A program made the position numbers and the translations under genes. A DNA stretch of 64,000 bases, from the NCBI GenBank assembly GCA_036874045.1, contig CM072338.1, positions 13,910,501 through 13,974,500 of the forward strand, given 5' to 3'. The notes under the pieces are model-generated. The model saw nothing but the letters and a program-made list of their open reading frames with translations. It was not told the origin of the DNA and did not search any database. This document shows positions 1,288 to 58,411 of this stretch, in pieces (the stretch's first letter is position 1; each line of letters starts with the position of its first letter). Source of the stretch: Cymodocea nodosa (Eukaryota > Streptophyta > Magnoliopsida > Alismatales > Cymodoceaceae).

Positions 1288-1972
1288 TGTTTAGAATGAG
1301 AAAGTGCATATTATTAACGGTTTAATGATGGTTAATTGCATAATATTTAGCTTATCATATGAGAATTAAGCCATTATGTTATAATTGCACTGTTATATGC
1401 TTTAATTAAAGAATCTGCTTAATTTTGGGGAATTAATGTTAATTTAGTACATTTCTGAACTGTCGGTAAGTTGTAGGCTGTGAAATTCTTAAGTATCCGA
1501 ATTTTCTGATATTTTGGACAGTTATGTTTAACATACCGAACATATTTCAGACAATTATGTTTAACAGACCGAACATGTCGGATAGTTATGTTTAAATTGC
1601 CGAACAGTTATGTTTTGAAGGAATATTTTATTATTTCCTGAAGTACACGTGTCAAAACCATAATACATGACTTAAGTGAACTTTCGGTGAGTTATCTATA
1701 ACTATCCGAAATTACAACTAGGCATCGAATAGTTAGACCTGTAACTCTCTGAAATATCTTTTTATTTATAAAATAGTTGTGGACACGTGTCAAGTTCTGG
1801 AAAAGTGACTTAAGTGGATTTTCGGTGAGTTATCTATAACTATCTGAAATGCATCTGAGCATCGGATAGTTAGACCTGTAACTCTCTAAAATATTTATTT
1901 TATTATTAAACTACTGTTGACACGTGTCGAGATCTGGTAGATTTACTTAAGTTATATATCAGTGAGTTATCT

Positions 1973-2099
1973 GTAACTATCTGAAATGCACCTGAGCATC
2001 AGATAGTTAAGTTTGTAAGTATCCGAAATGCACCTGAGCATCAGATAGTTAAGTTTGTAAGTATCCGAAATGCACCTGAGCATCGAATAGTTAAATTTA
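1973..2099 (+). repeat. 42-bp tandem repeat (3 units) with internal dyad, inside L-LTR A
   Basis: The word gaaatgcacctgagcatc recurs at 1983, 2025 and 2067, a constant 42-bp period. Each unit begins with (c)tatccga or a close variant and ends with tcggatagtta or a variant, so a unit can fold into a hairpin of about 10 bp with a 14-base loop. Related single units lie at about 1838-1873, 61080-61115, 61213-61250 and 63497-63531. Because 42 is a multiple of three, the opposite strand stays open and would encode a repeated 14-residue peptide (LRCISDTYKLNYLM). I take that as a by-product of the repeat. Confidence 0.85.
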
Positions 2100-2236
2100 T
2101 GCACGTGTTTTATAGTTAAATCAACGAAGAAATTCCGTTGAGTTATCTGTAACTCCATGGACTATTTATTTTCTAATATGCCATTGGAGCGGTTGCAGGA
2201 ACAAGGCAGTTGAAAGAAAAACCACGACTACACGTA

Positions 2237-2602
2237 TCACGTAGGGAGAAAAAAGCATCGCCGTTGATATGAATGAAGGAAATCCAATCGACCATTCAAG
2301 TAGAAGCAGTTACTATTGAAGAAATATAAAAGAAAAGAAGAAAAAGAAGAAAAGTGTGTGATTGATGGACGACCAATGTATACAGAGGAGGAGTACCGAG
2401 CTTTCTGCAAATAGTATCGGCAATTCTCCAAAGTACCACACCAACCATCGTTACCACCACCACAATCACCAACCATCGGAGGTCTGTGAGAATACTTTCT
2501 TGATGTCGGGTCGATTCTGAGCCAAACACAATGTCTGACAACCACTGTGAGGAGTGATCGTGTCGTGGGAAGGGAAGCCATTTTCACCAAGTGCCGACTC
2601 AT
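2237..2602 (-). other. Conserved antisense reading frame in L-LTR A (121 codons)
   Basis: This frame runs antisense to the LTR and opens with MSRHLVKMAS. It has no recognisable domain; the C-terminal part is Ser/Phe/Tyr rich. The same frame with the same start region (LVKMAS...TRSLLTVVV...TSRKY.HRP.MVGD) is open in LTR E (61580-61891, minus) and LTR B (7125-7313, plus). In LTR C an in-frame stop interrupts it (near 43611), and in LTR D a stop falls shortly after the start. It lies just around and downstream of the LTR TATA box. It could be a small antisense product or chance conservation of promoter DNA. I favour the second. Confidence 0.3.
2325..2332 (+). promoter_or_regulatory. TATA box of L-LTR A
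   Basis: TATAAAAG lies mid-LTR in sense orientation. The same octamer occurs at the equivalent place in LTR E (61609-61616, plus) and, as CTTTTATA on minus-strand copies, in B (7352-7359), C (43800-43807) and D (56136-56143). Conservation in five copies at one position supports a core promoter, which would put the transcript start about 30 bp downstream. No transcript evidence is available here. Confidence 0.6.
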
Positions 2603-3531
2603 ATTTTAGGAGATCGTAAAGCTTTTAGCCTTGGCTTCAGGTTGATGCCTGTATGCTGAAGAGGAGATCATCTTGCAATTCTAGACTCGCAATTCTATAG
2701 GGAGAGGAGACAGAATTGTAAGTGGTTTAATTTTCAGTGGTGTAATCGCGTTGCAAGTAGTGACAGAAGTATTTACTATCGAGTGAGATTACTTTACATT
2801 TCACCTTTCGCCCATTTCCATGTTCATATTAAAACAAAAATACCAAAAGCAATTTATCTATGTTTGTATGTTGTATTTGAGTGTTGTATTATTTGTGTTG
2901 TATCGTGATTAATGTTATCTTTGTTAGTATTGTGATTATTTTATGTTTGTTTTAGTTTTACAGTTTACTGAAATTGGTTCGTTCAAAAGACTTAAAGATT
3001 TTAATTGTTATTGTTTGAATTATCTGAATGTTAGTATGCTTAATGATAAATCCAGTGTTTACTAACATTAAAGAGCTTAATTGATGTTATTTACAATCTG
3101 TGGAATCACCCAATGGTTAGCCAAATTCCTCTGTAAATAGCAGTATTTAAAAAGAAAAGACAGACTCGTGGAGTTAACTTAAGTCCACGAGGTTAGTCCG
3201 TTGAGTTAGCCATAACTCAACGAACTTTGTCTGTTGAGTTAACTGTAATTCAACGGAGGGCTTATTGAAGATACAAATTTGATTGTTAACAAACGAACAG
3301 TTCTCAGTTCTTAAGCAATTCCCTGTGGGATCGACCTGTACTTGCACATTGATATAATAGACACTGTGCACTTGCAGTTAAAGTACAAATTGGAATTATT
3401 ATCTAAATTGTATTAAAAGTTGTTTGTTTACTTCTAAAAGAAAAAGAATAAGCATAAAGCTAAATTAACTAAGTAAAAATAGAAGTAATAAATCAAAGTT
3501 TTTCTAGTGTCACGTTGGGAAAATCTAAACA

Positions 3532-5611: not shown

Positions 5612-6832
5612 TTAGTAATTAAAATTACCAGTGGATAGAATAAGAGCACAAAACATTCATAAATAAAATTCTATTCTTTATAAACTTTAAAGAAAAAATT
5701 TACAATATCTTTTTAGCTCAATTCCCTTTTTGATGGTTTTGATATAGTAATGTCCGATATATAATTCAAATAGAAAATGAAGTCCTTATTCAAAACTAAT
5801 TTCGAATTGTATAAAACCAGATCTTTATGCACGTAGCTCCTTTCCTTCTTTTTGCTTAGCTTCTGTATCTCTTCTTCTCTAGTTGTCGAATTTCCAGACT
5901 TTTTGTGTTTGCAGCTTTTTTTCTGAAATTGCTTGGAATTTCGAACTTCTTCTGATGTTGGAGAATTTTTCTAGATATGAATATTCAGTTTGTGATTGGG
6001 ATCAGGATGATAGTAATGTAGCTCGTACTCTCTATTAGTAATCGAACTCTAACTTCACATTCAACATGTTCATCCACTTAATCCATAATCCATGTACTAA
6101 TTTCAAATTCATATTATCCATGATTTCCACTATCTTTTTGAATTTCCACTATGTCCACTATCATTTTGAAATTTCTACTTTCTCCACTATCATTTTGAAT
6201 TTCCACGATCTTCACTCGTAGATTCACCAAAACTTTATCTTCTTGGAGATTTGTAGAATATCTTCTAAGTCACCGCTTTAGTCGAACACTTATCATTTAA
6301 GTCTTGTAAAAACTTAAACACTTATTTGTAACTCTTTGAGTTTTTGCATCTACAAAACACGTGACTGAACAAAGAAAACTTATATGTTCGATAGTCATTT
6401 TATAAAACTCAAACAGTTATCTATCCATGTGTATAAAAACTCGGACAGTTATCTAACTCTTCGATTTTCATTACCAAATGCACATGGAAAACATGTGACA
6501 ACTTAAAACATTAAAAACACACGTGCAGATAACTTAACTATACAAGTTTTTAACATAACTCTCTGACTAAATTGAAATGTTAACTATCCAAAAGTTTAAC
6601 TGTCCGAAATTCTAACTATCTGAAAACTTTAACTATACTAAAATCTAACTATCTGAAAACTTTAACTATACTAAAATCTAACTATCTGAAAGTTAACTAT
6701 CCAAAATTTTAAATGAAACTTTTCGATAACTTGTCAACATTTAATTACGTGACTATTATACTTAGAAAATATTATTTAGACTTATTTATAAGCTTTAATA
6801 AAGCATTTATCATCAAAACAAAATTTCTAACA
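5612..6832 (-). repeat. S-family Sirevirus-like LTR, nearly complete
   Basis: On the minus strand it starts TGTTAGAAATTTTG at 6832 and runs to about 45 bp short of the usual CCTACA end, where the Tork LTR adjoins. It aligns over its length with the S-LTRs at 51735-52981 and 58412-59618 (reversed). Shared landmarks are the run of 'aactatccgaa/aactatctgaaa' words at 6580-6720, the block acacgtga...aaaacttat near 6360, and the block around 5870-5960. No S internal sequence adjoins it, so it is either a solo LTR or an LTR whose body lies beyond the Tork insertion. Confidence 0.85.
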
Positions 6833-8311
6833 AACAATACAACACTTTAATACTAAATGTAAACATAGATAATTTGTTGTTTTTGGTATTTTTGTTTTGA
6901 TATGTTCCTGAAGATGAGTGAAAGGTGAAATGTAAACATCTCTATCGATAGTAAAAACTTCCATCACTACATGCGATGCGATTACACCACTGAAAACTTA
7001 ATCATTTACAATCTTGCCTCCTCTCCCTATAGAATCGTGAAACAAGAATTGTAAGATGATCTCGTCTTCAACATACTAGCATTAACTTGAAACCAAGGCT
7101 AGAAGCTTTATGATCTCTTGAGATATGAGTCAGTGCTTGGTGAAAATGGCTTCCTTTCTTGTGATGCGATCACTCCTCACAGTGGTTGTCAGTTACCGTG
7201 TTTGGCTCGAAATCAACTTGACATCAAGAAAGTATCCTCACAGACCTCTAATGGTTGGTGATTTTGGTGGTGGTGTGGAGCTTCAGGGAACTTCCGACGG
7301 TTCTTGTAGTTAGCGTGGTTCTCCACTCACCCACACACACTTTTTCTTCGTCTTTTATATTTCTTTCAGTAATAACTGCTTCTGCTTAAATGATTGATTG
7401 GATTTCCTTCATTCATATCAACGATGGTGATTTCTTCTTCATTCCACAAGTGAATTCCTACGTAATACGTGCAATCGTGGTTTTCCATCGAATTTCCTAT
7501 TTCTACAACTACTACAATGGCATATTAGAAAATAAATGGTCTGTGGAGTTACAGCTAACTCAACAAAGTTACTTCGTTGATTTAACTATAAAACACATGC
7601 AATGAAGAAATAACTTATAAGCTTATAACACTAACACAACGCGTTACGTTAGTGTATATTTAAGTAACTTAATGTGTATAGTTATGCTAACTTAACGAGT
7701 TAAACATGTGCAGCTCACGTAACATAATAAAACATTTAAATTCAACACATACATAATTCTAACTTAACGAGTTCAAATATACAACTTATAGTTTTTACTC
7801 ACTAACTCAATGAGTTGTTACTTGTTCTTTTCTTTTTACACCTTTAAGCCTGTAACTCAACGAGTTGTTACTGTGTACCTAAATATTCTTTTAGCGTTTA
7901 AAACATAACTTAACGAGTTCAGATATACAACTTACAGTTTTTACTCACTAACTCAACGAGTTGTTACTTGTTTCTTTTCTTTTTACACCTTTAAGCATGT
8001 AACTCAACGAGTTGTTACTATGTACTTGAATATTCTTTTAGCGTTTAAAACATAACTGTCCAGTATATTAAATATAACTCTCCAAAATAATAAAAAATTT
8101 AGATACTTAAGAATTTCAAAGCTTGTAATTCACCAACAGTTCAGAAATGTACTTAATTAACACTAATTCCTTGAAATTATGCAGATTCTTTCATTAAAGC
8201 ATATAATAGTGTAATTATAATATAATGACTTAATTCTTATATGATAAGCTAAATATTATGCAATTAACCATCATTTAACCGTTAATATTATGTACTTTTT
8301 TATTCTAAACA
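6833..8311 (-). repeat. L-family LTR copy B, 5' two thirds
   Basis: The minus-strand LTR start TGTTTAGAATA is at 8311, immediately against copia reverse-transcriptase coding DNA at 8312. It keeps the TATA box (7352-7359), the conserved antisense frame (7125-7313) and several aactcaacgagttgttac repeats (7800-8030, two near-identical blocks about 130 bp apart). It stops at 6833 where the S-LTR start adjoins. The missing distal third of the LTR would continue beyond the S insertion. Confidence 0.85.
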
Positions 8312-35211: not shown

Positions 35212-35246
<35 letters not shown>

Positions 35247-42675: not shown

Positions 42676-44625
42676 TGTGAAAGGTTAACTTCTATTTTTA
42701 TGCTTATATCAATAATTACTTTTAGAAGTAAACTAACAACCTTTCACACAAATTAGATATTAATTTCAATTTGTGTTTTAACTACAAATACACAGTGTAT
42801 ATTGTATTTGTGTGCAAGTATAGGTCGATCCCACAAAGAGAGATGGAATAAAAATTGTGTACTATTTCAATTTTTATGTTGGAGTTTATGTATTCAGTAA
42901 AACACTCTATTGAATTACAGTTAACAAAACGGACTTAGTTCGTAGAGTTATGGCTAACTCAATGGACTAACCTCATGGAGTTAAGTTAACTCCACGAGCC
43001 TATCAATATTGTTAATTACAGAGGTATTCGGCCAACCATTGGGCGATTCTACAGATTGTAAATAACATCAATTAAGCTCTTTAATGCTAGTTAAGATTAG
43101 ATTTATCATTAAGCAATACTAATATTCAGATATTTCAAACAGTAACCGTTAAAATCTTTAAGTATTTGGAACATAACAATTTCAGTAAACTGTAAAACTA
43201 TTATCTATTTTTCTAATCAATCAAACATAAAATATTCACAATACTGACAATGATAACATTAATCACGATACAAAACATACAATACAACACTTGAATACTA
43301 AACGTAAATACAGACAAGTTGTTGTTTTTGGAATTTTTCTTTTTGATATGTTCCTAAAGATGAATGAAAGGTGAAATGTAAAAATCTCTATCAATAGTAA
43401 AAACTTTCGTCACTACATATGACGCGATTACACCACTGAAAATTTAATCACTTACAATCATGTCTCCTCTCCCTATAGAATCGTGAGTCTAGAATTGTAA
43501 GACGATCTCCTCCTCAGCATACTAGCATCAACTTGAAACCAAGGCTAGAAGTTTTACGATCTCCTAAGATATGAGTCGGTGCTTGGTGAAAATAGCTTCC
43601 CTTCCCGGGATGTGATCACTCCTCACAGTGGTTGTCAAGCACCGTGTTTGGCTCGGAATTAACTCGACATCAGGAAAGTATCCTCACAAACCTCCGATGG
43701 TTGGTGATTATGGTGGTGGTGTGGAGCTTCAAGGAACTTCTAATGCTGCCTGCAGTTAGCGCGGTTCTCCAACACACTTTGCACACACTTTTTCTTCGTC
43801 TTTTATATTTCTTATAGTAGTAACTGCTCCCACTTAAATGATCAGTTAGATTTCCTTCATTCATATCAACGATGGTGATTTCTTCTTCATTCCACAAGTG
43901 AATTCTTACGTGATACGTGTAATCATGGTCTTCCTTCGTATGTCTTGTTTCTGCAACTACTACAGTGGCATATTAGAAAATATATGATCCATCGAGTTAC
44001 AGATAACTCAACGGACTTACTTCGTTGATTTAACCATAAAACACGTTCAATAAAGAAATAAGCTGCTAACATAACGCGTTACCTTAGTGTGTATTCATGT
44101 AACTCAATGCGTACAGTTATGCTAACTTAACGAGTTAAACATGTGCATCTCACGCCATATACTTAAGCATTTAAATTCAACACGTGTATAATTCTAACTT
44201 AACAAGTTCAGATATTTCGGACACTTACAAATCTAACTATCTGATGCCCAGATGCATTTTGGATAGTTAATAAATAACTTACCGAAAATCCACTTAAGTC
44301 TATGTATTGAGGTTTCAACACGTGTAATTCAGGAAATAATAAAATATTCTTTGAACATTTAAAACATAACTGTCTAGTAAATTAAACATAACTCTCCAAA
44401 ATAATAGAAAATTTGGATACTTAAGAACTTCATAGCCTATAATTTACCGACAATTTAGAATTGTACTAAATTAACATTAATTCCCTGAATTTATGCAGAT
44501 TCTTTCATTAAAGCATATAATAGTACAATTATAACATAATGGCTTAATTCTCATATGATAAGCTAAATATTATGCAATTAACCATCATTTAACCGTTAAT
44601 ATTATGCACTTTTCCATTCTAAACA
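42676..44625 (-). repeat. L-family LTR copy C (3' LTR of the F-box element)
   Basis: Minus-strand start TGTTTAGAATGG at 44625 follows the polypurine tract (gtatgggggaag, minus strand of 44626-44637). It keeps the TATA box (43800-43807) and most LTR landmarks, and its conserved antisense frame has an in-frame stop. Near the end it departs from copy A and stops with ...GTTAACCTTTCACA at 42676, 2-TG/CA like but unlike TCTAAACA, so the 3' end may be rearranged. It interrupts Tork copia reverse transcriptase at 42675. Confidence 0.82.
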
Positions 44626-46378
44626 CTTCCCCCATACTTAAATTTTACTAGTCCCTTAGCAAACTAAGATTTAACTAATTAGCCTTTCTAAACTACTAGA
44701 ATTAATTCTTCATTTCGTTCATCTTCAGAATAATAAATTAGATTACTATATAGATTTTCTGTATGTTTCAGTAATCTATTTTAACTTTGTTTTCTCCTCT
44801 TCAACCTACAAATATACTTAGAATATATGTAAATTATATACAAAATATATCAGCATCACATAGGTGTTAATTATATTATCATTTGTTCTTTTCATCATCT
44901 ATCATCTTAAATTTTCCAATATGATTTCCAGAATAAATTTCAACAACATACGAATCAAAACACAATCCAATTCAATATGATTAAGACAAGTAGAATAAAG
45001 AATTGTATCTCAGATAAACAACTTCAAAAGTCTATTCTAGATTCATACTTCAGTAATCTTAGATAACAGAAAATATACTCAATTCAAAAGATATCTGTAT
45101 TTCACAAAACACTTGTATCTTTTCAGAACAGTATATGAATATTTGTACTTTAAAAGTTAATTTGACAAAGCTTACATCTTACAAGAGCTTTCTAGTGTAC
45201 CCATGTATCGAGCTTTCAGTCAACAATCTCAGATCTGATCAAGACCTTAGGTTGCCAGATTTAAAGAGTCATTTTCAGGTCAACAATCCTTACATACCTA
45301 TCTGCTCAAGTACAAAAGGCTCGTGATCAAACAAGTCAATAAACTCTCAAAGTTTTTCTCTTTCTCTCTTTTTTTTTTTTTTTACACAACAAACAGAATA
45401 TATACGTATTTCATTAATACAAATGCAATAAAACACAAATCTCGTATAGTCCTGCTTCTATTCTTTACTGAAAATATGAATCCATGTCAATAAGCTCATA
45501 CTTTTTCTATAGTTTAATAAGATCTACACATAAATCATTCTACAAGTTTAATCAATCAAATTAAGTGTATCCTTGATCATATGTATTTCATTTAATCTAA
45601 AAATCAACATTTCAACTCTTTCAGGATTTCAGATAATTTACTGAGTTTCAGTTAAGCATTCTGATTTCATTTTAAAATCGTGAAACTCTTAAACTCATAA
45701 AATTCAGCAAAAACATAAGATACTATATCTAGATTTGTATGAATAGTAATATTCTGTAGCATCTTATAAAAAATTCTAAATATAACATTCAAGCAGTTAC
45801 AGTTCTTCAAAATTTTATAGTCTCAATTATCGGATGGTTACAGCAAATTCTCAAAAAATTTTCAATTTCCACATACTTTTGCAGTACCATTCTAATCCTT
45901 TAATTAACAAAATTACATGGCTGCTACTTTAATTACCTCCCCCCATACCTACATTTTGCATTGTCCTTAATGTAAAAGATTTTACAATAAATACAGTAAT
46001 TGTAGTAGTCATGAATATTGTTTCATTGACTTAGCACCTAAATTAACGAATTGAATTTAAATGTAAATTCAGGATAAGTAATCAATTACATACCTTGTTC
46101 TTTTGTATCTCCTTCCATATCTTTCGATTTTTGATTCTGAAAAACTTTTCATTCACAAATAAAAGCAAAATATATAACAACATAACAAAACAAAAATTGC
46201 TAATTCAATGTCTTGTGTGGAACCTAGGCTCCTATGCCTTTGGTGGCTTACAAGCAAGCTAGTTGGTTTCCCAAAACAGATACCAACAAACTGGATTGAT
46301 ATTTTGTTGGTTTTTTAAAAAAAATAATAATAAAATAAATGTAGAATACACACAACATTAAAAGCACAGAACCACAGT
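44626..46378 (-). other. 3' UTR and polypurine tract of the F-box element
   Basis: No coding frame. The first 1.25 kb upstream of LTR C aligns with window positions 1-1287 in reverse, including the A-rich tract (here T-run at 45369-45384) and the block aagtagaataaagaattgtatc near 44988. This shared region shows that the F-box element and element A belong to one family. The remaining 46100-46378 adjoins the F-box stop codon (46379-46381). Confidence 0.75.
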
Positions 46379-46849
46379 TTAAGAACATGACTGAAAAGTA
46401 GTAACAAAAGGAATAAACGTGTCAGTCCATTCAAACTTTTTAGGCATAATTCTTCTTGCTATTAATTCTATTTTAATGTAGTTTATTTTCCTTTTCAGCT
46501 TGTAAACTTGCAATATGTTATCAATACTAAATATAAGTGTATTACCATTAATGAAATGAAATGCAGAAATGGATTCTCTTATGTTCCAAGATAATGTAAC
46601 TATTTCTATTTCTATATCTATTTCAATATATTCTTCTTCCCACTTCCATTCATTTAAGTATTTTATAATCCATATTTGAAATTTCTTCAATTCCTCCCAC
46701 CATCTTATCAGACATAAAGTAGGATCATCATATTCATTATACCACATTCTTAATTGAATTTGATCATATTCTGAAGATGGTGGTTTAGCTATATCACTCG
46801 GTATAGGTAATATTTCTATAAAATCATCATAATTGCCTATGCTTACTAT
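46379..46849 (-). pseudogene. F-box protein gene, 3' part (C-terminal 155 codons)
   Basis: It continues the frame of the 52982-53655 part once the nested copia and its 8-base flank duplicate are removed. The protein segment runs SIGNYDDFIEILPIPSDI, then YDDPTLCLIRWWEELKKFQIWI, a W/E-rich stretch, and ends FIPFVTTFQSCS. It has the alternating aromatic and hydrophobic strands of an F-box-associated beta-propeller-like region (FHFINGNTLIFSIDN). It has no internal stop over 155 codons including the terminal TAA at 46379-46381. Family assignment depends on the F-box at the other end. Role would be substrate recognition in an SCF ubiquitin ligase. Confidence 0.65.
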
Positions 46850-47969
46850 TGTAGGATCGTCTGTATCACAAGAGACAGGTGAATTATGTCTTTAGTAATT
46901 AAATACTAGCGGATAAAACAAGAGTACAAAACACTCGTAAATGAAATTCTATTCTTTTATTTCAAGACAGAATTTACAATATCTTTTTAGCTCAATTCCC
47001 TTCTTGACGGTTTTGATACATTAATGTTCGATATACAATTCAAATAGGAAAACAAAGCTCTTATTCAAAACTAATTTTGAATTGTATATAACCTGATCTT
47101 TATGCACACAACTTCTTTCTTTCTCTTTACTCAGCTTCTATATCTCTTCTTCTCCAGTTGTCGAATTTCCAGACTTCTTACGTTTGCAACTCCTTTTCTA
47201 AAATTGCTTGGAATTTTGAACTTCTTCTGATGTTGGAGAATTTTTCAGAATATGAATATTCAAACTAAACTTTTCAGTTAGGGATCCGGATTGAATATTC
47301 AGACTTGGTTTTTGAAATTGGGATACTTTTTTGTAATGTAGCTCGTACTCTCTATTAGAAGTTGAACTTTGTTGTCTTTTACCTTCAGCATGTACATCCA
47401 CTTGATCCACAATCCATAATCCACTTACTAATTTTCTCTTTAATCCAAATTACTTTCTATTTTAATTTCCACTTTCTCCACTAACATTTTGAATTTCCAC
47501 GATCTCCACTTCGTAGATTCACCGAAACTTTATCTTCTTGGAGTCTTGTAGAATATCTTCTAGGTTTTCGATTTAGTCGAACATTTATCCTTTAAGTTCT
47601 GTAAAAACTCGAACACTTATCCTTTAACTCTTCTAGTTTTTGCACCTACAAAACACGTGACCAAACAAAGAAACTTATATGTTCGTTAGTCCTTTTATAA
47701 AACTCGAACAATTATCTATCCATACGTATAAAAACTCCAACAGTTATCTAACTATTCGACTTTTCATTATCGAACGCACATGAAAAACACGTGACAACTT
47801 AAAACATTAAAAACACACGTGCAGATAACCTTAACTATACGAGTTTTTAACATAAAGTATTCGACAAAAATGAAACGTTAATTATTCGAAAGTTTAACTA
47901 TCCGAAATGTTAACTATCCGAAAGTTTAAGTATTGCAAATCTAACTCTTCGGAAATCTTTAATTTATCC
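46850..47969 (-). repeat. 3' LTR of copia S3, lacking its first ~130 bp
   Basis: Ends CCTACA at 46850 (minus strand). It parallels the 5' LTR 51735-52981 block by block (same gatatacaattcaaatagg, cttctgatgttggagaatttttca and ttagggatccggattgaatattcag words), with scattered differences. It stops at the word aatttatcc (47961-47969), where the integrase-hinge sequence begins. Confidence 0.88.
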
Positions 47970-49225
47970 TATTTTCTTAGGTTCTAGCAAAGAAACAAAT
48001 GAATAAGCACCACAGATATTGACTACTGATGACCGAGTCCTAACTCCTTGATTAGGATCGCCTATTATCTGATCAATAGGATGAGATGAAGTATAACGCC
48101 AATTTCTATGTTATTCCACATTTTCTATAGGTATGACATTATTTTCTTCTAAATTTTCATCATTCAAACTTAGATTTCTTATTTCATTAGATAATCTATC
48201 AATTTCTCTATCAACATCATTTGGTACTATTTCTAGGAGAATTTATAAATCAAAATTTTCAGCATGTCTTAAATCCAAATGAGAATATTCATGAAATTTC
48301 ACATGTAGGGTTTCCTCAATGGTTTTTGTTGATTTATTATAAACTCTATATGCTTTAATTCTAATGAAATAACCAACAAAAATACCTTCATCTAATTTGG
48401 CTTTAAATTTGTCTCTTCATTCCTTAGTGTTTAAAATAAAACACTTACAGCCAAAGAGTTTTAAATAACTTATTTTGGGAACCTTGTTATACCATATCTC
48501 ATAACGAGTTTTATCTAAAATTGGTCTTAGATGCACTTTATTTATAACATAGCATGCTATATGAACTACTTCTACCCAAAAAGATAGGGGTAACTTATTT
48601 TCATTTAACATGGTTCTGGACATTTCCTGAAGTGATTTATTTTTACGTTCTACTATCCCATTTTGTGAAGGAGCTCTTGGAAATCAGTACCTATGATCTA
48701 TGCCTAATTCTTCACAAAATGTGTCCATTTGATCATTATCAAATTCTGTACCATGATCACTCCTAAGTTTTTGAATTTTAACATTTTGCTTGTTCTGAAC
48801 TTTATTACAGAATATCTTAAATATTTCAAAAACTTTAGTTTTATTAACTAGAAAATAGACCCAAGTGAATCTAGAATAGTCATCAACTAGTACAAAAGCA
48901 TAATGTATTAACCTCCTAGACTAGTTGTTCTAGTAGGTCCAAATAAATCCATACGCACTAGTTCTAATACTCTTTTGCTTGTTACTTCATTTAAGCATTT
49001 AAAGGATGTTTTACGTAATTTACCTAGTTGACATGCATCACACATAAACTCTTTCGAGTACTTAATACTAGGTAAACCTCTAACTAGATTCTTTTTAGAC
49101 AGCTTTTGTAATAATTTTAAGTTTGAGTGTCCTAGCCTTCTATTCCATAAAATGACTTCATCTGATTTTGCAATTAAACAAGCATTGTCTTTAATAATAT
49201 CAGAAGGTAAATTTCGAATACAAAC
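47970..49225 (-). pseudogene. Integrase and hinge of copia S3
   Basis: Same domain order as S2. Pre-integrase zinc region with CDACQLGKLRKTSFK near 49030; core with MDLFGP (first Asp) near 48950, RSDHGTEF near 48765 and a NGIVERKN-type Glu motif near 48650; then MSRTMLNENKLPLSFWVEVVHIACYVINKVHLRP and LKLFGCKCFILNTKE (48623-48417). Stops and a small insertion near 48905 break the core. The hinge (48290-48080) ends in the RNWRY.SSHPIDQIIGDPNQGVRTRSS segment before the deletion. Confidence 0.85.
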
Positions 49226-49560
49226 AGATCATTTCTTGTATGCAGTGAATAATATTTCGTTTGTAGACATGTCCATAATTTTGCAGGAATCTTTTTCAAA
49301 AATTACTCTATAAATCTTCATTAAAACAAGAACACTCAATAAATTAAAACCTAAGTTTTCCACTAATAAGACATCATTTATAAAGCATTTCTCAGTTACT
49401 TGAACCTTGTCAGACCCAAGGATATTTGTTTTGCTTTTATTTCCAAAGGTAACTTGTTTGTTCTTGGTCTTTGTTATTTTTGTAAGTAATCGTATATCTC
49501 CAGTCATGTGGCTGGATACTCCACTGTCTATTATCCATTTTGATTTGTGTACCTACAAAA
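49226..49560 (-). pseudogene. Aspartic protease of copia S3
   Basis: WIIDSGVSSHMTGDIRLL near 49530-49480 keeps the catalytic Asp-Ser-Gly, unlike the S2 copy. It is followed by QVTFGNKSKTNILGSDKVQVTEKCFINDVLLVENLGFNLLSVLVLMK, the typical protease body, in one open frame to 49229. Confidence 0.85.
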
Positions 49561-49799
49561 TAGTTAAAAAGAGATTTTATCTCTTGGAAACCATTTTTGA
49601 GTGGGTCCAAGAATTTTAGAGAGAGTCATATCAAAATAATCCATATTTTTAGACTTCAACTTATCTATTTTCTGATAATTATTCTTGCGTTTCTTTCTTT
49701 TAGTGTTATAATTATCAGAACATTTGTCTCTATGAAAACCAGAGTTGAAATTTTCATTTCTAACATTACTTGATTTTCAATATCCGATATTCTTTAAAT

Positions 49800-51576
49800 A
49801 TGAAGAAAATTGATCAAGAACATTAAAATTCTCAAATGTCTTAGCTTGATTCTTCTAAAGATTTCTTTTGAAATTCTTGCATCTTGTGCTATCATTTATA
49901 TGCTGCATTTTATCAACTTGCACATATTTTTCTCCCTTTTTAATCAAACATGGAATAGTTTTTCTCTTACTATTCTCAGTACTGGAAATAAAGACATTAT
50001 TTTTAGCAGTACCATCATGTAATATATAATTTTTAGAAGATGCATCATGTAAACCAATACCATAATTTTCTACATTTGATATTGTACTACTAAGTTCATT
50101 TGTTATAGCTTAACTATTATTCCATTTACTTAATATAGCCTTTTGATTGCAGACTTTAATCTTTAATACATCAATTTCTAAATTTAAATCAGTAATAGTT
50201 AGTTCTAGTTTCTAAATTTTGCAGATCATTTTCTTCTTATCAGCAATTAAATTTTCACAATCAGCATGCAATTTTCATTCTATAGTAGTGAACTTTAAAA
50301 TTTCCTGTGCATGCCTTTGATTTTCTTCTTTAAATTAATTCAACGTTGAGTTCAGAAAATCAATCTTATTTTCAGATTCATCTAGCATTTTCCTAGTGTC
50401 ATTTCTTTCTATTTTGACTTTTTTATTTTTTCTGGTCAGTCTATCGTATTCAACAAGCAAACCATCAAAACTATCAAAATTTGCATTTTTATCAAAGGAT
50501 ACCTCACTAGATTTTGCCATAAAGCATACATTTGCCAGATTTTCTTCTGAATTTGATGTTGATGATGATTCGTTGTCTGATGTTCAATCCTTTGTTTCTT
50601 CACTTTATGAAGCTCAAGAGTCATCCCACGTTACTTTAAGCGCCCTTCTCTTTCTGAATTTCTTATTCCTGAAATTCCACCTTGAATTCTTCTTATCTTT
50701 GTTGAGAGGACAATTAGTTTGAAAGTGACCCGGCTTATTGCACTTGTAGCATATACTTTTGTCTTTCGTGAATGACTTCTTCTCCATATCTCCAAATGTC
50801 TTTGCTGACCTGAAGTTCCTACGTTTCTTCAACAGATTTCTAAATTTTCTAGTCAACAATAGTAAATCATCGTTAGAATCACTAATGACTTTTGAGACTT
50901 TATCAACCTCAAAAGCCAGATCCCTTCTAGAATTTTTCCTTTTTGGATCTAAATGTTGTACTTCATAGGCTATCAGATTTCCTATGACATCATCGAGAGT
51001 ATATGTATTTAAGTCTTTGGACTCTTCAATAGATGTATTCTTCTGAGCCCAAATTTTAGTTAAAGATCTAAGGATCTTTCTTACCAAGTCTTTTTCCTTG
51101 AATTTCTTGCCTAAAGATTTTAATGAATTTACAATCTCAAGAAAACGGGAAAATATGTCAAAGATACATTCATTTTCGTGCATTGTAAAAAGCTCATATT
51201 TATGTACTAACATATTGATCTTAGATTCCTTGACCTGATTAGTACCTTCGTTGGCAACTTCTAATGCATGCCATATCTCATATGTAGTTTGATATGCAGG
51301 AACTTTATTAAATTGATCATGAGATAAAGTACAAAACAAAATGTTTAAACCTTTAGCATTTAGTGTCATTCACTCCTTTTTATCAAAACTCTAAGTATCA
51401 TAGGGAGTCGTAACTAACACTATAGGATTGCTAATTATATGCTATAATTTGAAATCAATTGACTAAAAGAATACTTTCATCCTATATTTCCAGTAGTCAT
51501 AATTGCTACCTTCGAACATAGGAGGACAATTAGTGGCATATCCTTCAGTCATAACTAAGATTTCAGAATTATCCAT
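49800..51576 (-). pseudogene. Gag of copia S3
   Basis: ATG at 51576 (MDNSEILVMTEG) begins the frame, which is interrupted near 51370-51480. The main frame 51369-50614 holds YEIWHALEVANEGTNQVKESKINMLVHKYELF, LEIVNSLKSLGKKFKEKDLVRKILRSL, LTRKFRNLLKKRRNFRSAKTFGDMEKKSF and the CCHC knuckle CYKCNKPGHFQTNC (about 50740). After a frame change the acidic, coiled-coil C-terminal part (50520-50335 and on to about 49900) follows. It is the best-preserved Gag of the family here. Confidence 0.9.
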
Positions 51577-51734
51577 TTTAAAAAGATGATCCGAAGTAAA
51601 TGACAGGAAAAATCGATTCCTAAATAGAGAAAGGCTTTTAATTATGATAATAATGAAAGCTCTAATACTAGTTGTAGCAGAGCGTAGTAAATCTGGAAAA
51701 AAAAAAAGTGAAAAATAGAAGCTCTGATACTAGT

Positions 51735-52981
51735 TGTAGGATCGTCTGTATCACAAGAAGTGGATGAATTGTGTCTTTGGTAATTAAATACTAGCGAATA
51801 AAACAAGAGCACAAAACACTCGTAAATGAAATTCTATTCTTTTATTTGAAGACAGAATTTACAATATCTTTTCAGCTCAATTCCCTTCTTGACGGTTTTG
51901 ATACAGTAATGGTCGATATACAATTCAAATAGGAAAACAAATCTCTTATTCAAAACTAATTTTGAATTGTATATAACCTGATCTTTATACACACAGCTTC
52001 TTTCTTTCTCTTTGCTCAGCTTTTGTATCTCTTCTTCTCTAGTTGTTGAATTTCCAGACTTCTTACATTTGCAGCTCCTTTTCTAAAATTGCTTGGAATT
52101 TCGAACTTCTTCTGATGTTGGAGAATTTTTCAAAATATGAATATACAAACTAAACTTTTCAGTTAGGGATCCGGATTGAATATTCAGACTTGATTTTTGA
52201 GATTAGGATCCTTTTTTGTAATGTAGCTCGTACTCTCTATTAGTAGTCGAACTCTGTTGTCTTTTACCTTCAGCATGTTCATCCACTTGATCCACAATCC
52301 ATAATCCACGTACTAATTTTCTCTTTAATCAAAATTACTTTCTATTTTAATTTCCACTTTCTCCACTAACATTTTAAATTTCCACGATCTCCACTTCGTA
52401 GATTCACCGAAGTTTTATCTTCTTTGAGTCTTGTAGAATATCTTCTAAGTCTTCCATTTAGTCGAACATTTATACTTTAAGTCCTGTAAAAACTCGAACA
52501 CTTATCCTTTAACTCTTCGAGTTTTTGCACCTACAAAACACGTGACTAAACAAAGAAACTTATCAGTTCGTTAGTCCTTTTATAAAACTCGAACAGTTAT
52601 CTATCCAAGCATATAAAAACTCGAACAGTTATCTAACTATTCGATTTTTCATTACCGAACGCACATGGAAAACACATGACAACTTAAAACATTAAAAACA
52701 CACATGCAGATAAGCTTAATATACGAGTTTTTAACATAAAGTTTTCGACAAAAATGAAATATTAACTATCCGAAAGTTTAACTATCCGAAACGTTAACTA
52801 TACGAAAGTTTAACTATTGCAAATCTAACTCTTCAGAAATCTTTAATTTATCCAACATAAAAATGAAACTTTCTGATAATCTGTTAACTATTATACTTAG
52901 AGAAATATACTTAGAGAATATTATGTAGACTTATTTAAATACGTTAATAAAGACTATATCATCAAAATTAAATACCTAACA
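51735..52981 (-). repeat. 5' LTR of copia S3, complete (1247 bp), with adjoining primer site
   Basis: TGTTAGGTATTT at 52981 and CCTACA at 51735. The primer site gctctgatactagt (51721-51734, plus strand) is complementary to tRNA-iMet (gctctgatacca). A second, degenerate copy of the LTR-end/primer-site words (gctctaatactagttgtagcag) lies 60 bp further inside at 51659-51680, a local duplication. Contains clustered taactatccgaaa words at 52765-52815. Confidence 0.9.
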
Positions 52982-53655
52982 CTTATTATGTATAAATCAG
53001 ATCTAAATGCAACTGATATATCTGTGACTAGATATATATATCCATCAAGTATGACATGCATGCTGTTAATTAAAGCTTTCTGTCCTAGATATATCATAGT
53101 ATTTTCAGTTTAAGATCTATTCAGAAAATTATACACACTTAAGCATAAATCTTCATCCCAATTTCTAGTTGATCTCCAATAATATAATTTTTCAGGAATG
53201 ATCAATTTTTTATCAAAAAAAATTAAAGCTGACTCACAATTTTCAGTTGGTACTTCATATCTATTAGGCCTTCCTATATTCCATTCTTCTCTAGTGATAG
53301 GATTTCTAACCAAAATATCAGGTAACAGAATTGCATACCTTAGTTTGATTCTGTAAATAATTAATCATTCATCCATCCCCATAATACGATCTATTCCTTC
53401 TAATGTATTAGGTGGAATTCCAACATTTTCTTCCATATTCAGATATTCATAGTTGATTGAACTATGATTAAATGACTTCCATAAAAATCCATCTCTAATC
53501 TTAGTCATTTTTACAGCTTATAGTCCGTGAAAATATTTTTCTCTAACACAGTCTTTAATTTCTTTTGATACACAACACAATCTACATAGATCTTTAGCTG
53601 ACAAGTTACTCAGTACTTCCCTCAGTGCATCCAGCGGTAATTTCATAAATTCCAT
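52982..53655 (-). pseudogene. F-box protein gene, 5' part (codons 1-224) in an LTR retrotransposon
   Basis: ATG at 53655. Residues 5-40 read KLPLDALREVLSNLSAKDLCRLCCVSKEIKDCVRE, a textbook F-box (LP...L.E.LS.L..KDL.R..CVSK), the Skp1-binding motif of SCF ubiquitin ligases. Later comes ILVRNPITREEWNIGRP, like the F-box-associated 'NP.T.EW' strand, and MHVILDGYIYLV. The frame has three in-frame stops (codon 46 TAA, one TGA near 53365 and one TAA near 53110) but no frameshift across 224 codons. It continues after the nested copia (46849-46379) for about 379 codons in all, the usual F-box protein length. It follows gag and an intron-like segment. Decayed, but once apparently full-length. Confidence 0.75.
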
Positions 53656-53666
53656 CTGTTATGATT

Positions 53667-53857
53667 CTGTATAACATAAAAAAAAAATTAATAGAGACAA
53701 AATTAACATAACTACTTCACACCCTCGTGGAGTTAGGTCATAACTCAATGCACTAAGTTCGTTGAGTTAAGTAATAACTCTACGAAACTACTAACTACAA
53801 TTAAGCTTATATTTTTTCTTTTTATATTTTTCTTCTTACTATATTATACATACTTAC
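53667..53857 (-). other. Putative intron between gag and the F-box gene (191 bp)
   Basis: On the minus strand, GTAAGTATG (donor, starting 53857) lies 16 bases after the gag stop, and a run of nine or ten T's followed by ATGTTATACAG (acceptor ending 53667) lies 11 bases before the F-box ATG. Both match plant consensus well and the size suits a plant intron. The segment also holds cgttgagtta/aactcaacgaa words typical of these LTRs. Confidence 0.5.
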
Positions 53858-53872
53858 TTCTGTTATATTGTT

Positions 53873-55081
53873 TCATTCAGCTACCCTCCCAAAGGAGGTA
53901 TCAATTTCATTAATAGTTCTATTGGCAGGGTTAGGTATTGCTTGCATTGGCAATCCTCCAGTAGGTTTAACTTCCATTGATTCCTTTTGTCTAGGAGGTA
54001 TATTTCTATTCTTATTTTGATTTTGCATTGTAGCATTTCCAAATACAAGATCTAGACGATTGTTTAATTGTTGGATTATCTTTTCTAATTTCTCTATTCT
54101 AGATCCTTGTTCAATTAATGCTTCATAACTTATATTCTTGTCATTTATATTTTCGCCTCTCTGAAAATTGTTGTTTCTTCAAGATAAATTCGGGTGATTT
54201 CTCCAATTAGGGTTATAAGAATTTCCAAAGTTATCTTTCTAGTTTCTAGCATAAATAATATCTAAAACATTAATGTTAACATTCTTTTCTGCTAGTTTCT
54301 AATTTAATGATAACTCTTCTATTTTCTTTGTTAATTCATTTAATTTAACTTCAAGCATAGTGCTTGAATCTATTTCATGCATTCCCCTAGGCAATATTCT
54401 TTTATCTGTAATAGCTTCAGCTGAGTTTTTCCACTATGCAGTTCTTTTTGCAAAGTTTTCTAAATATGCTCATGCTTCTTCACTATAGAGTTTTAAAAAT
54501 CCATTATGACAAGTAGATTCTAACAAAGATTTCGTTGAAACATCTATGCCTTCATAAATTATACCTATTAATTGTGCTTTACTCATTGCATGATGTGGAC
54601 ATTGAGTCAGTAAATCTTTAAAACTTTCAAAATATTTCCAGAATGATTCTCCCTGTTTTTGGCTGCACATTAATATTTCCTTTTTCTTTTTAATCATTTG
54701 ATGTGTTGAATAATATTTTTTCAGAAAAATAGAGCAAAATTCAGTTCATGCAGAAATTGAATCAGGCGATAGACTATATAACCATCTCTTAGCTGTGTCT
54801 TTTAAAGTAAAAGGGATATATCTAAGTTTAATAGCATCAAAACTCATGTTCGGCATTTTCATCATTTGACAAACTTCGTTAAATTCTCTTAGTAAATAAT
54901 AGGCATCTTCTCTTTCTAATCCATGAAAATGTGACAATTGACTAATATAATTAGATTTCAGTTCAAACATATCTACCTCAAAGCTTGGCAATCAGATGCA
55001 TGAAGGTTCATCAATTAATTCAGGATACAGAATTTTCTCTAATGGTTTAGCTATTAATTCCAATTTATGTACAGGATACAT
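53873..55081 (-). pseudogene. Athila-type Ty3/gypsy Gag in the F-box element
   Basis: A candidate ATG sits at 55081, right against LTR D. Blocks: KLELIAKPLEKILYPELIDEPSCI, FELKSNYISQLSHFHGLEREDAYYLLREFNEVCQMMKMPNM, IKLRYIPFTLKDTAKRWLYSLSPDSIS, GESFWKYFESFKDLLTQCPHHAMSKAQLIGIIYEGID, SYNPNWRNHPNLS and a C-terminal EKLEKIIQQLNNRLDLV helix, ending RVAE at 53876. These are typical of Athila/Calypso Gag. No CCHC knuckle is visible where one would be expected (about 54260-54300). Several stops, for example after SCI and ISA. Gag would form the particle that packages RNA. Confidence 0.85.
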
Positions 55082-56930
55082 GAATTAGCTATTAATTCCA
55101 ATTTGTGTTTTAACTGCAAGTGCACAATGCATACTGTATTTGTTGTGTACAAGTACATGTCGATCTCAAAGGGAGAGATAGAATAAAGTTGTGTACTGTT
55201 CCGATTTTTATATTGAAATTTATGTGTTCAGTAAAACACTCTGTTGAATTATAGTTAACACAACGGACCTAGTTCGTGGAGTTATGGTTAACTCAACGAA
55301 CTAACCTCGTGGACATAAGTTAACTCCACAAGTCTAACAATACTGTTAATTACAAAGGAATTCGGCCAACTATTAGGCGATTCCATAGATTGTAAATAGC
55401 ATCAATTAAGCTCTTTGATGCTAGCTAAGATCAGATTTATCATAATGTAACACTAGCATTCAGATATTTCAAACAGTAACCATTGAAATCTTCAAGTGTC
55501 TAGAACGAGTCAATTTCAGTAAATTATAAAACTATCATCTATTTTCTGAATCAATTAAACATAAAACATTCACAATACCAACAACGATAGCATTAATCAC
55601 AATACAAAACAAACAATACAACACTTACATACTAACTGTAAACACAAATAAGTAGTTGTTTTTGGTGTTTTTTTTTTTAATGTGTTCCTGAAGATGAATG
55701 AAAGGTGAAATGTATAAATCTCTATCGATAGTAAAAACTTCCGTCACTACATGTAACACAATTACACCACTAAAAATTTAATCACTTACAATCCTGTCTC
55801 CTCTCCCTATAGAATGCAAGTCTAAAATTGCAAGATGATCTCCTCCTTAGCATATTGACATGAACTCCAAACCAAGGCTAGAAGCTTTACGATCTCTTGA
55901 GATATGAACCGGTGATTGGTGAAAATGGCTTCCCTTCCCCCGACGTGATCACTCCTCATAGTGGTTGTCAAGCACCGTGTTTGGCTCAAAATCAACCCGA
56001 CATCAGGAAAGTATCCTCACAGACCTCTGATGGTTGGTGAAGGTGATGGTGTTGGTGTGGAGCTTCAGGGAACTTCCGACGCTGCCTGTAGTTAGTGTGG
56101 TTCTCCAACACACTTTGCACACACTTTTTCTACGTCTTTTATATTTCTTACAGTAGTAACTGATCCTGCTTAATTGATCGGTTAGATTTCCTTCATTCAT
56201 ATCAACGATGGTGATTTTTTCTTCATTCCACGAGTGAATTCCTACGTGATACATGTAATCGTGGTCTTCCTTCAAATGTCTTGTTTCTACAACTACTACA
56301 GTGGCATATTAGAAAATATATGGTCCATGGAATTACAGATAACTCAACGAACTTACTTCGTTGATTTAACTATAAAACACGTGCAATAAAGAAATAAGCA
56401 ACTAACCAAACGTATTACTTTAGTGTGTATTCATGTAACTCAACGCGTACAGTTATGCTAACTTAACGAGTTAAACATGTGCATCTCACGTGATATACTA
56501 AAGCATTTAAATTCAACACGTGCATAATTCTAACTTAACAAGTTCAGATATACAACTTACAGTTTTTACTTACTAACTTAACGAGTTGTTACTTGTACCT
56601 TTTACAAATTTAAGCCTTTAACTCAACGAGTTGTTACTGTGTACCTGCATATTCTTTTAGCATTTAAAACATAACTATTTGGTACATTAAATATAACTCT
56701 CCAAAATAACTAAAAATTCGGATACTTAAGAACTTCATAGCCTATAATTTACTGACAGTTCAAAATTATACAAAATTAACATTAATTCCCTGAAATTATG
56801 CAAATTATTTCATTAAAGCATATAATAGTGTAATTATAACATAATGGCTTAATTCTGATAAGATAAGCTAAATATTATGCAATAAACCATCATTTAACCG
56901 TTAATATAATGTACTTTTTAATTTTGAAGA
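55082..56930 (-). repeat. L-family LTR copy D (5' LTR of the F-box element), 3' end truncated
   Basis: The minus-strand start near 56930 (TCTTCAAAATTAAAAAG) is a mutated TGTTTAGAATGAAAAAG, lying inside Athila pol. The TATA box is at 56136-56143. Its antisense frame is stopped early. At the other end it lacks roughly the last 110 bp of copy A, and no primer site is found. The junction shows the identical 20-mer ttagctattaattccaattt at 55047-55066 (in gag) and 55085-55104 (in the LTR), 38 bp apart. Confidence 0.85.
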
Positions 56931-58411
56931 GGCTCCAATCAGGTGCTTGTATTATAGGAGTTGAAATTAAGCTAGTTTTAAGCTTCAAAAATGCTTCTTT
57001 GCAATTTTAATCAAACTTAAGTGGGACATCTTTTAATAGATTAGTTAAAGGTCTAGCTATTTTGCTAAAATATTTAATAAATCTTTTGTAAAATCTAGCA
57101 TGTCTTAGAAATGATCTAATATCTTTTACTAATTTAGGTTCTAGTAGATTAGAAATTACTTCTATTTTAGCTTTATCTACTTCCAACCCTTTCTTTGAAA
57201 CAACATGCCCCAAGACTATTCCTTGTTTAACCATGAAGTGACATTTTTCCCAATTTAGAACCAGACTTTTTTCCACATAGCATTTTAATACTTGGTCTAA
57301 ATTGTTTAAACACACTTCATATGAAGTTCCATAAATAGTAAAATCATCCATAAATATTTCTAAAAAATCTTCAATCATTCTAGTGAATATGCCCTACTTA
57401 CACCTTTGAAAGGTGGCTGGTGCATTGCATAGTCTGAATGGCATTCTCTTAAAAACATAAGTTCCATTAGGACAGGTGAAAGTTGTTTTCTCTTGATCCT
57501 CTAATGCTACAAGAACTTGGTTATATCTTGAATACCCGTCTAGGAAACAAAAATATTCTTGCCCTGCCAATTTCACTAGTATTTGATCTATAAAACGTAA
57601 GGGAAAATGATCTTTCCTAGTCACTGCATTCAGCTTTCTATAGTCTATACACACTCTCCAGCCTGATTGAATTCTAGTAGGTATCAAGTTTTGACTTTCA
57701 TTCCTAATAACTATTAATCCTAATTTCTTGGGAACTACATGGATTGGACTAACCCATGAGCTATTAGAAATCGAATAAATTTTTTCATTATCTAACCATT
57801 TCACTATTTCCTTCCTGACTACTTCTTTAAGGTTTGGATTTAATCTCCTCTCAGGAATTCTAATAGGTTTAGCATTCTCTTCTAAATATATGTGGTCACA
57901 GCTTAAAGTTGCATTTAAGCCTTTTATATCATTCATAGTCTATCCTATTGCTTCTTTATAAGTTTTTACTACATCTTTTAGTTTAGCAATTTGATACTCT
58001 TTTAAATCTGAAGCAATAATGATTGGACATGTTCATTTTTCTTCCAGAAATATATAGGTTAATTCAATAGGTAAAGGTTTTAATTCTAAATGTTGCCCAT
58101 CAGAAGCTAGAGCTCCTAATTAAACATCATCATTTTCTAAATTAATTTCTTCCTGATCTCCTTCTATATTTATGCTTTCACTTTCTTCTAAAGTTTTAAA
58201 ATTGAGTTGCTTATTTAATTCTTCTTAAATCACATCATCTAGCATATCTTCTTCATCCTCTAAAAAGTCTATAGTATGTAAGGACATTTCTAACCCCTCA
58301 AACTTTTCTAGTTTGAAAATGTTTAATTTAGTATCCTCATTACCATATGCTAACTTCATTACTCCAATTTTACAATTTATAACAACCTCTGATGTTGCTA
58401 AAAATGGTCTT
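56931..58411 (-). pseudogene. Athila-type Ty3/gypsy pol fragment: protease C-terminus and reverse transcriptase
   Basis: Starts in the protease with RPFLATSEVVIN (58411). A linker region with KPLPIELTYIFLEE and IIASDLKEYQIAKLKDVV follows (stops near 58228 and 58045). The reverse transcriptase reads VRKEIVKWLDNEKIYSISNSSWVSPIHVVPKK, PTRIQSGWRVCIDYRKLNAVTRKDHFPLRFIDQ, CFLDGYSRYNQVLVA, FRLCNAPATFQRC, then after a frameshift (about 57380-57394) FMDDFTIYG (catalytic DD), NWEKCHFMVKQGIVLGHVVSKKGLEVDKAK and PIIQAPDWSL, where LTR D interrupts at 56930. The SGWR.CIDYRKLN block points to Athila/Calypso. A plus-strand S element cuts its upstream end. Confidence 0.92.

Follow-up and report, generated by a model that had tools for sequence, protein, structure and literature searches.

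Anatomy of the F-box copy in the window

The window, namely the whole stretch of 64,000 nucleotides of Cymodocea nodosa DNA analysed here, contains a decayed member of an Athila-like LTR retrotransposon family. The family is present in high copy number, its units measure about 17 kb, and we call its copies L elements. The earlier note had read from the letters a minus-strand series of LTR D, gag, F-box frame, 3' UTR with polypurine tract (PPT) and LTR C, and every one of these parts was confirmed and assigned coordinates, all on the minus strand. LTR D (about 55083..56920) has a full 5' end and a truncated inner end, which is fused into gag; LTR C is probably not its partner. The capsid-type gag remnant, with several stops, lies at 53823..54991 (Retrotrans_gag PF03732, E=1e-16, obtained with the first 230 residues of the remnant and X at stops). 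It is followed by the first part of the F-box frame, with 225 codons (52982..53655, ATG at 53655), and the last part (46379..46843) resumes at 46843 and ends with the stop at 46379. Between the two parts lies a 6.1-kb copia element (about 46844..52981), whose LTRs at 51728-52981 and 46844-47969 are 93.7% identical across 1127 columns, and in 20 of 20 copies without this insert the two parts are continuous. Thus the 379-codon frame described earlier does have its three stops, at codons 46, 97 and 182, but it is split by the copia insert. The F-box was rightly placed near the N-terminus: a profile search finds PF00646 at residues 4-42 with E=4.1e-11 and 42.8 bits against a cut-off of 20.5, and because of this E-value and of the family found genome-wide, a chance match is ruled out.

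Downstream of the frame, the 3' UTR of 1751 bp (44628..46378) ends in the polypurine tract at 44628-44638, TATGGGGGAAG, which immediately precedes LTR C (42676..44627). LTR comparison, the junction and the LTR tree identify LTR C as the 3' LTR of the window copy, and the same PPT/LTR junction, with point changes, is present in 9 of 9 other copies compared. Further pieces of the same kind of element surround this copy. A fragment of RT/RNase H, together with a small remnant of the protease end (56931..58410, minus strand; RVT_1 E=1.4e-10 and 1.7e-7), is cut by LTR D. On the plus strand, the 3' UTR of another L element (2..1287), 80% like the one next to LTR C and with its upstream part outside the window, leads into its LTR A (1288..3458), and a partial L-type LTR, LTR B, lies on the minus strand at 6829..8311.

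Pairing of LTR D and LTR C

It had been claimed that LTRs D and C bound one element, a view that the LTR tree does not uphold. Two real pairs form cherries in this tree (0.986 and 0.909), whereas C joins the LTR of another copy (0.998) and D joins two others, the latter with a weak value (0.757); we therefore reject D-C as the LTR pair of a single element. D and C are 85% identical over 1872 columns; in the comparison of all LTRs, 11 of the 21 others are closer to C than D is (85.7%). Counter to the unpaired reading, the best identity match of D is C itself, at 85.7% with a runner-up at 85.4%. The junctions on both sides of D are informative as well, for the RT/RNase H DNA (58410-56931) lies on the same strand and ends precisely at the start of LTR D, and the inner end of D has no primer-binding site (PBS) and runs into the N-terminus of gag near 55056, where there is a short duplication. 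Since D is truncated and fused to gag and the RT/RNase H is cut by D, the PBS, zinc knuckle, integrase, the next ORF and the promoter region are absent from the window copy and not from the family. The reading in which other L elements carry no F-box and two unrelated insertions happen to enclose a host F-box gene is rejected too, because the same junctions recur across other copies and all 20 fetched copies carry the F-box.

Layout of the family

The earlier description of the element as pol-less fails for the family. Integrase lies ahead of gag and F-box on the same strand in all eight copies with further upstream sequence, seven of which also have a clear RT. The five copies that reach the 5' LTR all show one order over about 17 kb: LTR, PBS, zinc-knuckle ORF, protease, RT, RNase H, integrase, an ORF, capsid gag, F-box, 3' UTR, PPT and LTR. 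The pol domains were identified by Pfam (RVT_1, RT_RNaseH and rve), and in L029, L030, L033, L034, L036, L037 and L038 the RT and RNase H precede integrase, which is the order that defines Ty3/gypsy elements. The RT and integrase motifs are also, presumably, akin to those of the Athila lineage. Paired LTRs, PBS, PPT and a target-site duplication mark the family as LTR retrotransposons, the unit of L033/L026 being flanked at both sides by the 5-bp duplication GCTCC. Within-element LTR pairs are 96.1, 94.4 and 93.7% identical against 88.9-91.1% between elements; the pairs of L016, L022 and L023 are closer than between-element LTRs, and the L025 pair, at 90.4%, does not stand out from unrelated LTRs. 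Against an 18-mer that we take to be the tRNA-Asp sequence, all seven LTR ends of the full type have a PBS that matches at 15-17 of the 18 positions, and three pol-less copies match at 8-10, where the background is 6-12.

The spacing of zinc knuckle and F-box agrees with this layout: in 24 of 32 same-strand pairs within 30 kb, the F-box lies 9.5-13 kb downstream, where random placement gives a mean of 0.2. No examined copy has every gene open, and the pol frames are broken in the units looked at. The claim of a non-autonomous carrier without pol does not hold for the family as a whole, although it may fit some derivatives, namely L010, L021 and L028, in which an LTR and a degraded PBS are followed by the ORF or gag with no pol between.

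A capsid gag behind pol

In five of five units there is no capsid between PBS and protease, and the capsid lies behind integrase. A CCHC zinc knuckle occurs in four of the five 5' ORFs and in none of 16 downstream gags. As the capsid is behind integrase and the element is not gag-first, we name the family Athila-like and do not file it as a member of the Athila lineage. The capsid gag is preceded by a conserved block, with a TATA in 15 of 16 copies lying within the most conserved 30-nt block, and an intron-like stretch stands ahead of a conserved ATG at the gag/F-box module; the DNA there is AT-rich, and both the TATA and the splice signals were recognised by their match to a consensus. All 16 gag copies have broken frames. 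They share TAGs at CAG and TGG codons, and a recoded or read-through TAG was considered and rejected: CAG/CTG sites in the 3' UTR likewise show about 30% change, so that decay by C-to-T changes at methylated sites accounts for the TAGs more simply.

The F-box gene and its selection across the genome

In a search of the window's own genome with the F-box frame, the best 150 of 5345 first-look candidates were scored and all 150 are close family copies with at least 81% identity. The earlier note had suggested looking for F-box DNA between gag and 3' UTR in other L elements and for any intact copy. The whole frame is present at the same place in 20 of 20 fetched copies, gag DNA lies directly upstream in 17 of them, and the frame is open in 6, where 15 of the 20 had been selected for long F-box frames. 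The F-box of the L009 copy likewise exceeds the PF00646 cut-off of 20.5, with 40.1 bits. For the C-terminal part of the protein, a match to FBA_1 (E=0.027) stays below the cut-off, and the structure model is unusable (pLDDT 32.8). PDB sequence searches gave no meaningful match, and scans of viral contigs confirmed no relative.

Purifying selection acted on both F-box and gag while the copies spread. In the proposed dN/dS comparison across copies, with CG/CHG sites left out, the omega of shared variants is 0.52 for F-box and 0.38 for gag, against 1.00-1.15 for the 3' UTR control and 0.81 for one wrong-frame gag control, so that the controls span 0.8-1.15. The contrast between shared and singleton F-box variants alone gives p=0.06 after hotspot removal. 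Divergence per site in the F-box is about half of that in the 3' UTR. The shared F-box variants include one stop at S=33 with an expected stop/S of 0.24, a count biased by the choice of copies; the raw contrast of stop counts between F-box and gag was dropped, because 15 of the 20 copies were selected for long F-box frames. The F-box was thus not captured in this copy alone: it recurs throughout the sampled copies of an abundant retrotransposon, which has kept it under selection.

Interpretation and alternatives

Taking anatomy and selection jointly, we consider it probable that the family is an Athila-like element with a split layout and a selected accessory F-box gene. One alternative is that the truly pol-less unit (LTR-PBS-gag-F-box-3' UTR-LTR) amplifies, mobilised in trans, with the pol-bearing units as recombinants or a minority. 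The A-type LTR and degraded PBS followed by ORF or gag in L010, L021 and L028 would suit it, as would the unit right of L009, which has no pol past its zinc-knuckle start, and the scant overlap of the best 150 gag places with the best 150 zinc-knuckle places, a pairing that we judge uninformative. Yet the integrase in every copy traced upstream speaks against it, the breaks of the pol-less forms fall at three different places, as expected of deletions, the two LTRs of L021 are only 75% alike across 554 columns, and first-look counts of zinc-knuckle ORF (5260) and F-box (5345) are similar; we regard it as unlikely. TR-GAG-type elements have gag only and no pol between their LTRs, and the integrase of the traced copies sets this family apart from them.

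Gag and F-box might instead have entered the element together, as a ready-made module taken from a cellular or domesticated gag/F-box locus that had its own promoter. This would agree with the TATA block, the intron-like stretch before the conserved ATG and the zinc knuckle missing from the downstream gag, but seems to us quite improbable; the best 150 hits, all of them close family copies, include no cellular one. Very improbable is the F-box as a passenger, a host gene captured once and copied without function: most copies are broken, and LTR elements are well known to capture host genes at a low level (PMC7264820), but the shared variants, with their low omega and single stop (stops being biased by choice), and the halved divergence argue otherwise.

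For the Athila-like element with a selected F-box, the following expression is envisaged. The LTR promoter would make the genomic RNA and an NC-PR-RT-INT protein, and an internal promoter would make a shorter RNA, from which alternative splicing could yield capsid or F-box protein. The F-box protein is predicted to bind SKP1 and so join an SCF ubiquitin ligase, to which its C-terminal part might bring a host protein or the element's own capsid. The element may thus encode its own handle on the host machinery of protein destruction. That the target is a defence or silencing factor is a first guess, and a doubtful one. The full scheme is similarly tentative: a gag split into a zinc knuckle with pol under the LTR and a capsid that has moved behind pol and has a TATA promoter of its own. 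Alternative splicing would there give, along with the capsid, an SCF F-box adaptor to remove a host restriction or silencing factor, as counter-defence via targeted protein destruction.

Comparison with known systems

The nearest known systems are the plant Ty3/gypsy elements Athila, Calypso and Diaspora, which, according to PMC1142308, likewise have long LTRs and a tRNA-Asp-type PBS, tRNA-Asp being used as primer by the Athila lineage, a CCHC finger adjoining protease, RT and integrase, and in many members an extra ORF region behind pol. There, however, gag core, finger, protease, RT and integrase stand in one ORF with gag first, whereas here the capsid follows integrase and the F-box comes next. 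The note's placement of a full-length F-box in the env position is apt, as the frame sits behind pol, in the stretch that can hold an env-like ORF in Athila-type elements. With its capsid behind pol and away from the zinc knuckle, the family differs from the described gag-first layout of LTR elements, which would bear on the control of capsid dosage.

Plant LTR elements with a fixed extra host-type gene are uncommon: the survey of 121 genomes in PMC9289625 lists 15 atypical domains, and its main text makes no mention of an F-box. Its orchid Gypsy elements are likewise large Ty3/gypsy elements (25 kbp) with a fixed host-type ORF; their extra gene is an AlkB m6A RNA demethylase, and here it is an F-box. 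Retand elements, as the main text of PMC11963269 presents them, also have a long pol-to-3'LTR region with ORFs and some clusters without gag, but most of these ORFs run antisense, with a TRP28 domain, and that text has no F-box. A high-copy family with a selected F-box makes proteasome targeting by retrotransposons directly testable. By function only, it may be set beside F-box proteins of viruses, for example polerovirus P0, and beside the host FBW2, which are reported to act against or control AGO1 and illustrate how a selfish element could profit from an F-box. F-box genes likewise meet transposon DNA in the nematode fusions with Tc1-mariner HTH, but in those, according to PMC12062965, host F-box genes took up a transposase domain, whereas here the element carries the F-box gene.

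Results

The F-box gene in its family

The C-terminal part of the F-box frame, used as a query against the source genome (374.6 Mb), gave 5345 first-look candidates; the best 150 were scored and all 150 match, the window copy at 100% identity and the rest of these best 150 of 5345 at 81-89%. Twenty copies of 10 kb were fetched, 15 (L009-L023) selected for long open frames and five (L024-L028) taken from among the higher-ranking matches irrespective of frame. The whole F-box frame is present in all 20. In 17 it is immediately preceded by same-strand gag DNA, which in L017 is reduced to the final 110 codons; L013, L014 and the target copy of L015 have no gag DNA in that place. An F-box between gag and the 3' UTR, which the earlier note had seen in one copy, recurs across the sampled family. 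Intact F-box frames exist as well, the frame being open end to end in six of the 20 (L009, L011, L012, L013, L014 and L016), 15 of which had been selected for long frames. The junction of 3' UTR, polypurine tract (PPT) and LTR is identical apart from point changes in all nine copies printed. On one sequence of the same genome, C2:8752573-9713852 (L002-L008, L024) carries a series of thirteen F-box places, near-identical and all of one strand, spaced in many cases by about 60 kb, or by 75-140 kb; the region is, by its appearance, a large tandem segmental duplication along with which the element was copied.

Complete element layout

The interval between the L-type LTRs D and C of the window had been described as a pol-less LTR retrotransposon with an F-box gene in the env position, and as a family property the lack of pol did not hold. 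The sequence before gag is conserved among copies for up to 3.2 kb and does not belong to an LTR; L009 is matched there nearly throughout by nine copies, partly by seven, and not at all by L013, L014 and L015. In further-upstream stretches, obtained for eight copies (L009, L016, L019, L020, L022, L023, L025 and L026), 8/8 have same-strand integrase DNA in front of gag and F-box, and 7/8 have a clear RT as well; upstream of L019 there are an integrase end and a weak RT/RNase H match, with nothing more of pol. The 5' LTR was reached in L016, L022, L023, L025 and L026, and all five show the order LTR, PBS, short leader, an ORF with zinc knuckle and coiled coil, protease, RT, RNase H and integrase, followed by a conserved spacer, a second ORF, gag, F-box, 3' UTR and, in units not cut there, an LTR. 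Behind the integrase of L022 sits a 1.9-kb insertion. No Pfam family was found for the ORF between integrase and gag, whose conserved parts in L022 (409-732 and 1423-2022) are at the position of the Athila env-like ORF.

The unit L033/L026, whose 5' LTR carries an internal deletion, has GCTCC at both outer sides, and the whole gene set therefore moved as one element. Identity within LTR pairs is 96.1% in L016 (697 bp), 94.4% in L022 (851 bp), 93.7% in L023 (1651 bp) and 90.4% in L025 (1110 bp); the last value is uninformative as an identity because it falls within the 88.9-91.1% found between elements (four comparisons), but the L025 pair does form a cherry in the LTR tree (0.909). Against an 18-mer that we take to be that of tRNA-Asp, the PBS matches at 15-17 positions in 7/7 full-type LTR ends.

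Arrangements without pol were found at L010:1-1990, L021:840-3240 and L028:138-3255, where an A-type LTR with a degraded PBS (8-10 matching positions, as against 6-12 for random window pieces) leads directly to the ORF or gag, with three different break points. In the unit next to L009 on its right, a zinc-knuckle start is directly followed by the spacer that normally comes after integrase. The family, judged by the eight copies with further-upstream sequence, is not pol-less.

As a check on spacing by coordinates, the best 150 of 5260 first-look candidates for the zinc-knuckle ORF were scored and paired with the best 150 F-box places within 30 kb. Among 32 same-strand pairs the F-box lies 9.5-13 kb downstream of the zinc knuckle in 24, with 16 at 10.3-10.8 kb; a single cluster of near-identical places on C2 contributes five of the 24, and the first three units fetched are included. 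Random placement gave a mean of 0.2 such pairs and a maximum of 3 in 1000 trials. The other pairs are seven wider ones (16.6-26.2 kb) and one reversed on the same strand, and three on opposite strands. When gag places (best 150 of 5463) were set against the zinc-knuckle places, only seven pairs lay no more than 30 kb apart, a single one of which is same-strand; this tells little for or against the layout.

Split gag

According to PMC1142308, Athila, Calypso and Diaspora elements have gag core, CCHC finger, protease, RT and integrase in one ORF with gag first, whereas here the capsid lies behind integrase and the CCHC in the 5' ORF. The CCHC motif is present in the 5' ORF of 4/5 units (in the fifth, L037, R replaces H) and in no forward frame of the downstream gag in 16 copies, and the capsid domain PF03732 was seen behind integrase only (E=2.2e-14 in L022). 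Because the L016/L037 unit, with A-type LTRs, has the layout of the C-type units, this layout seems to be older than the divergence of the two LTR types.

The window copy

The minus-strand series of the window runs from LTR D (about 56920-55083) through a gag remnant, the F-box frame and a 1751-bp 3' UTR with PPT to LTR C (44627-42676). The F-box frame with three stops was borne out, with domain PF00646 at 42.8 bits (E=4.1e-11) and stops at codons 46, 97 and 182; it is split by a copia element (about 46844-52981) whose own LTRs are 93.7% alike. RT/RNase H DNA of the same strand lies directly upstream of D, ending at 56931, at the start of D.

The assumption that D and C are the LTRs of one element was not borne out. 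In the LTR tree C groups with the LTR of L012 (0.998), and D groups with LTR B of the window (0.757) and the LTR of L026, while two real LTR pairs are cherries in this tree; by identity the closest match of D is, narrowly, C. The inner end of D is without PBS and joined into gag with a short duplication. The window copy is thus a damaged family member: its 3' half retains the layout of the family, and D stands in place of its 5' half. Elsewhere in the window there are an AT-rich tandem array (34993-36313; nested periods of 22, 44, 94 and 334 bases, two units 96% alike) and a GC-rich tandem repeat (38482-38900; 78/110/188 bases) in AT-rich surroundings.

Selection and decay

Copies decay once inserted, and single-copy variants are expected to be near neutral; variants common to several copies were taken to reflect forces before or during spread. 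In the F-box, gag and 3' UTR alignments (L009-L028), about 30% of copies carry a change at CAG/CTG trinucleotides, whatever the frame, a pattern resembling decay of cytosines methylated in CHG context. Such change gives independent TAG stops at the same codons. CG and CHG sites were excluded from the omega counts because CAG/CTG are mutation hotspots, with about 30% changed in the 3' UTR as well. For the F-box (20 copies) omega was about 0.91 in singletons and 0.52 in shared variants (S=33, N=55, stop=1), and for gag (16 copies) 1.32 and 0.38 (S=30, N=37, stop=3), as compared with control shared values of 1.10 and 1.09 in wrong F-box frames, 0.81 and 1.07 in wrong gag frames, and 1.00, 1.04 and 1.15 in the 3' UTR. 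The calculation of dN/dS across copies, proposed in the earlier note, sets shared F-box variants below those of the 3' UTR: with the relatedness of copies ignored, p was 0.001-0.005 for shared F-box against shared UTR variants, 0.06 for shared against singleton F-box variants and 0.0002 for the latter comparison in gag. Selecting copies for long frames biases the stop counts of the F-box; the five unselected copies have 1-3 stops in the F-box and 2-5 in gag, and gag is broken in 16/16 copies.

Discussion

Possible function

The F-box core is conserved in the family, and the usual role of F-box domains is SKP1 binding. The most attractive reading would be a role of the element's F-box in counter-defence, the main alternative being control of the element's own capsid. 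Polerovirus P0 is one of the viral F-box proteins directed against AGO1, and the plant F-box protein FBW2 decreases AGO1 (PMC2914764). Neither an F-box gene on an LTR element nor a capsid gene behind pol was described in the titles and abstract starts searched, most subscription journals being outside coverage. Across 121 genomes, a survey of m6A demethylases lists 15 atypical domains of Gypsy elements (PMC9289625), and the term 'F-box' is absent from its main text and from those of PMC7264820 and PMC11963269. Because of that journal coverage, such absence is weak evidence for the novelty of an F-box-carrying element with its capsid behind pol.

Candidate expression signals

In 15/16 copies a consensus match, TATAAATA or TATATATA, precedes the gag reference point by 402-416 nt; the 30-nt block holding it has the top conservation (0.956) of a 1.36-kb profile of 13 copies, and the second-best block (0.955) is within gag. 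The gag ATG, conserved in 10/12 copies shown, is preceded by a possible intron, GTATGT...TTAAG. Eleven nt before the F-box ATG, after a T-rich tract, CAG is found in 15/20 copies, TAG in two and no AG in three, and GTGAGT is present in 4/5 leaders. We infer from these consensus matches that there may be two transcription units with alternative splicing. The motif GTTGAGTTA/TAACTCAAC, which recurs in LTRs as well as ahead of gag and of the F-box (53700-53790 and 56340-56660 in the window), might be regulatory.
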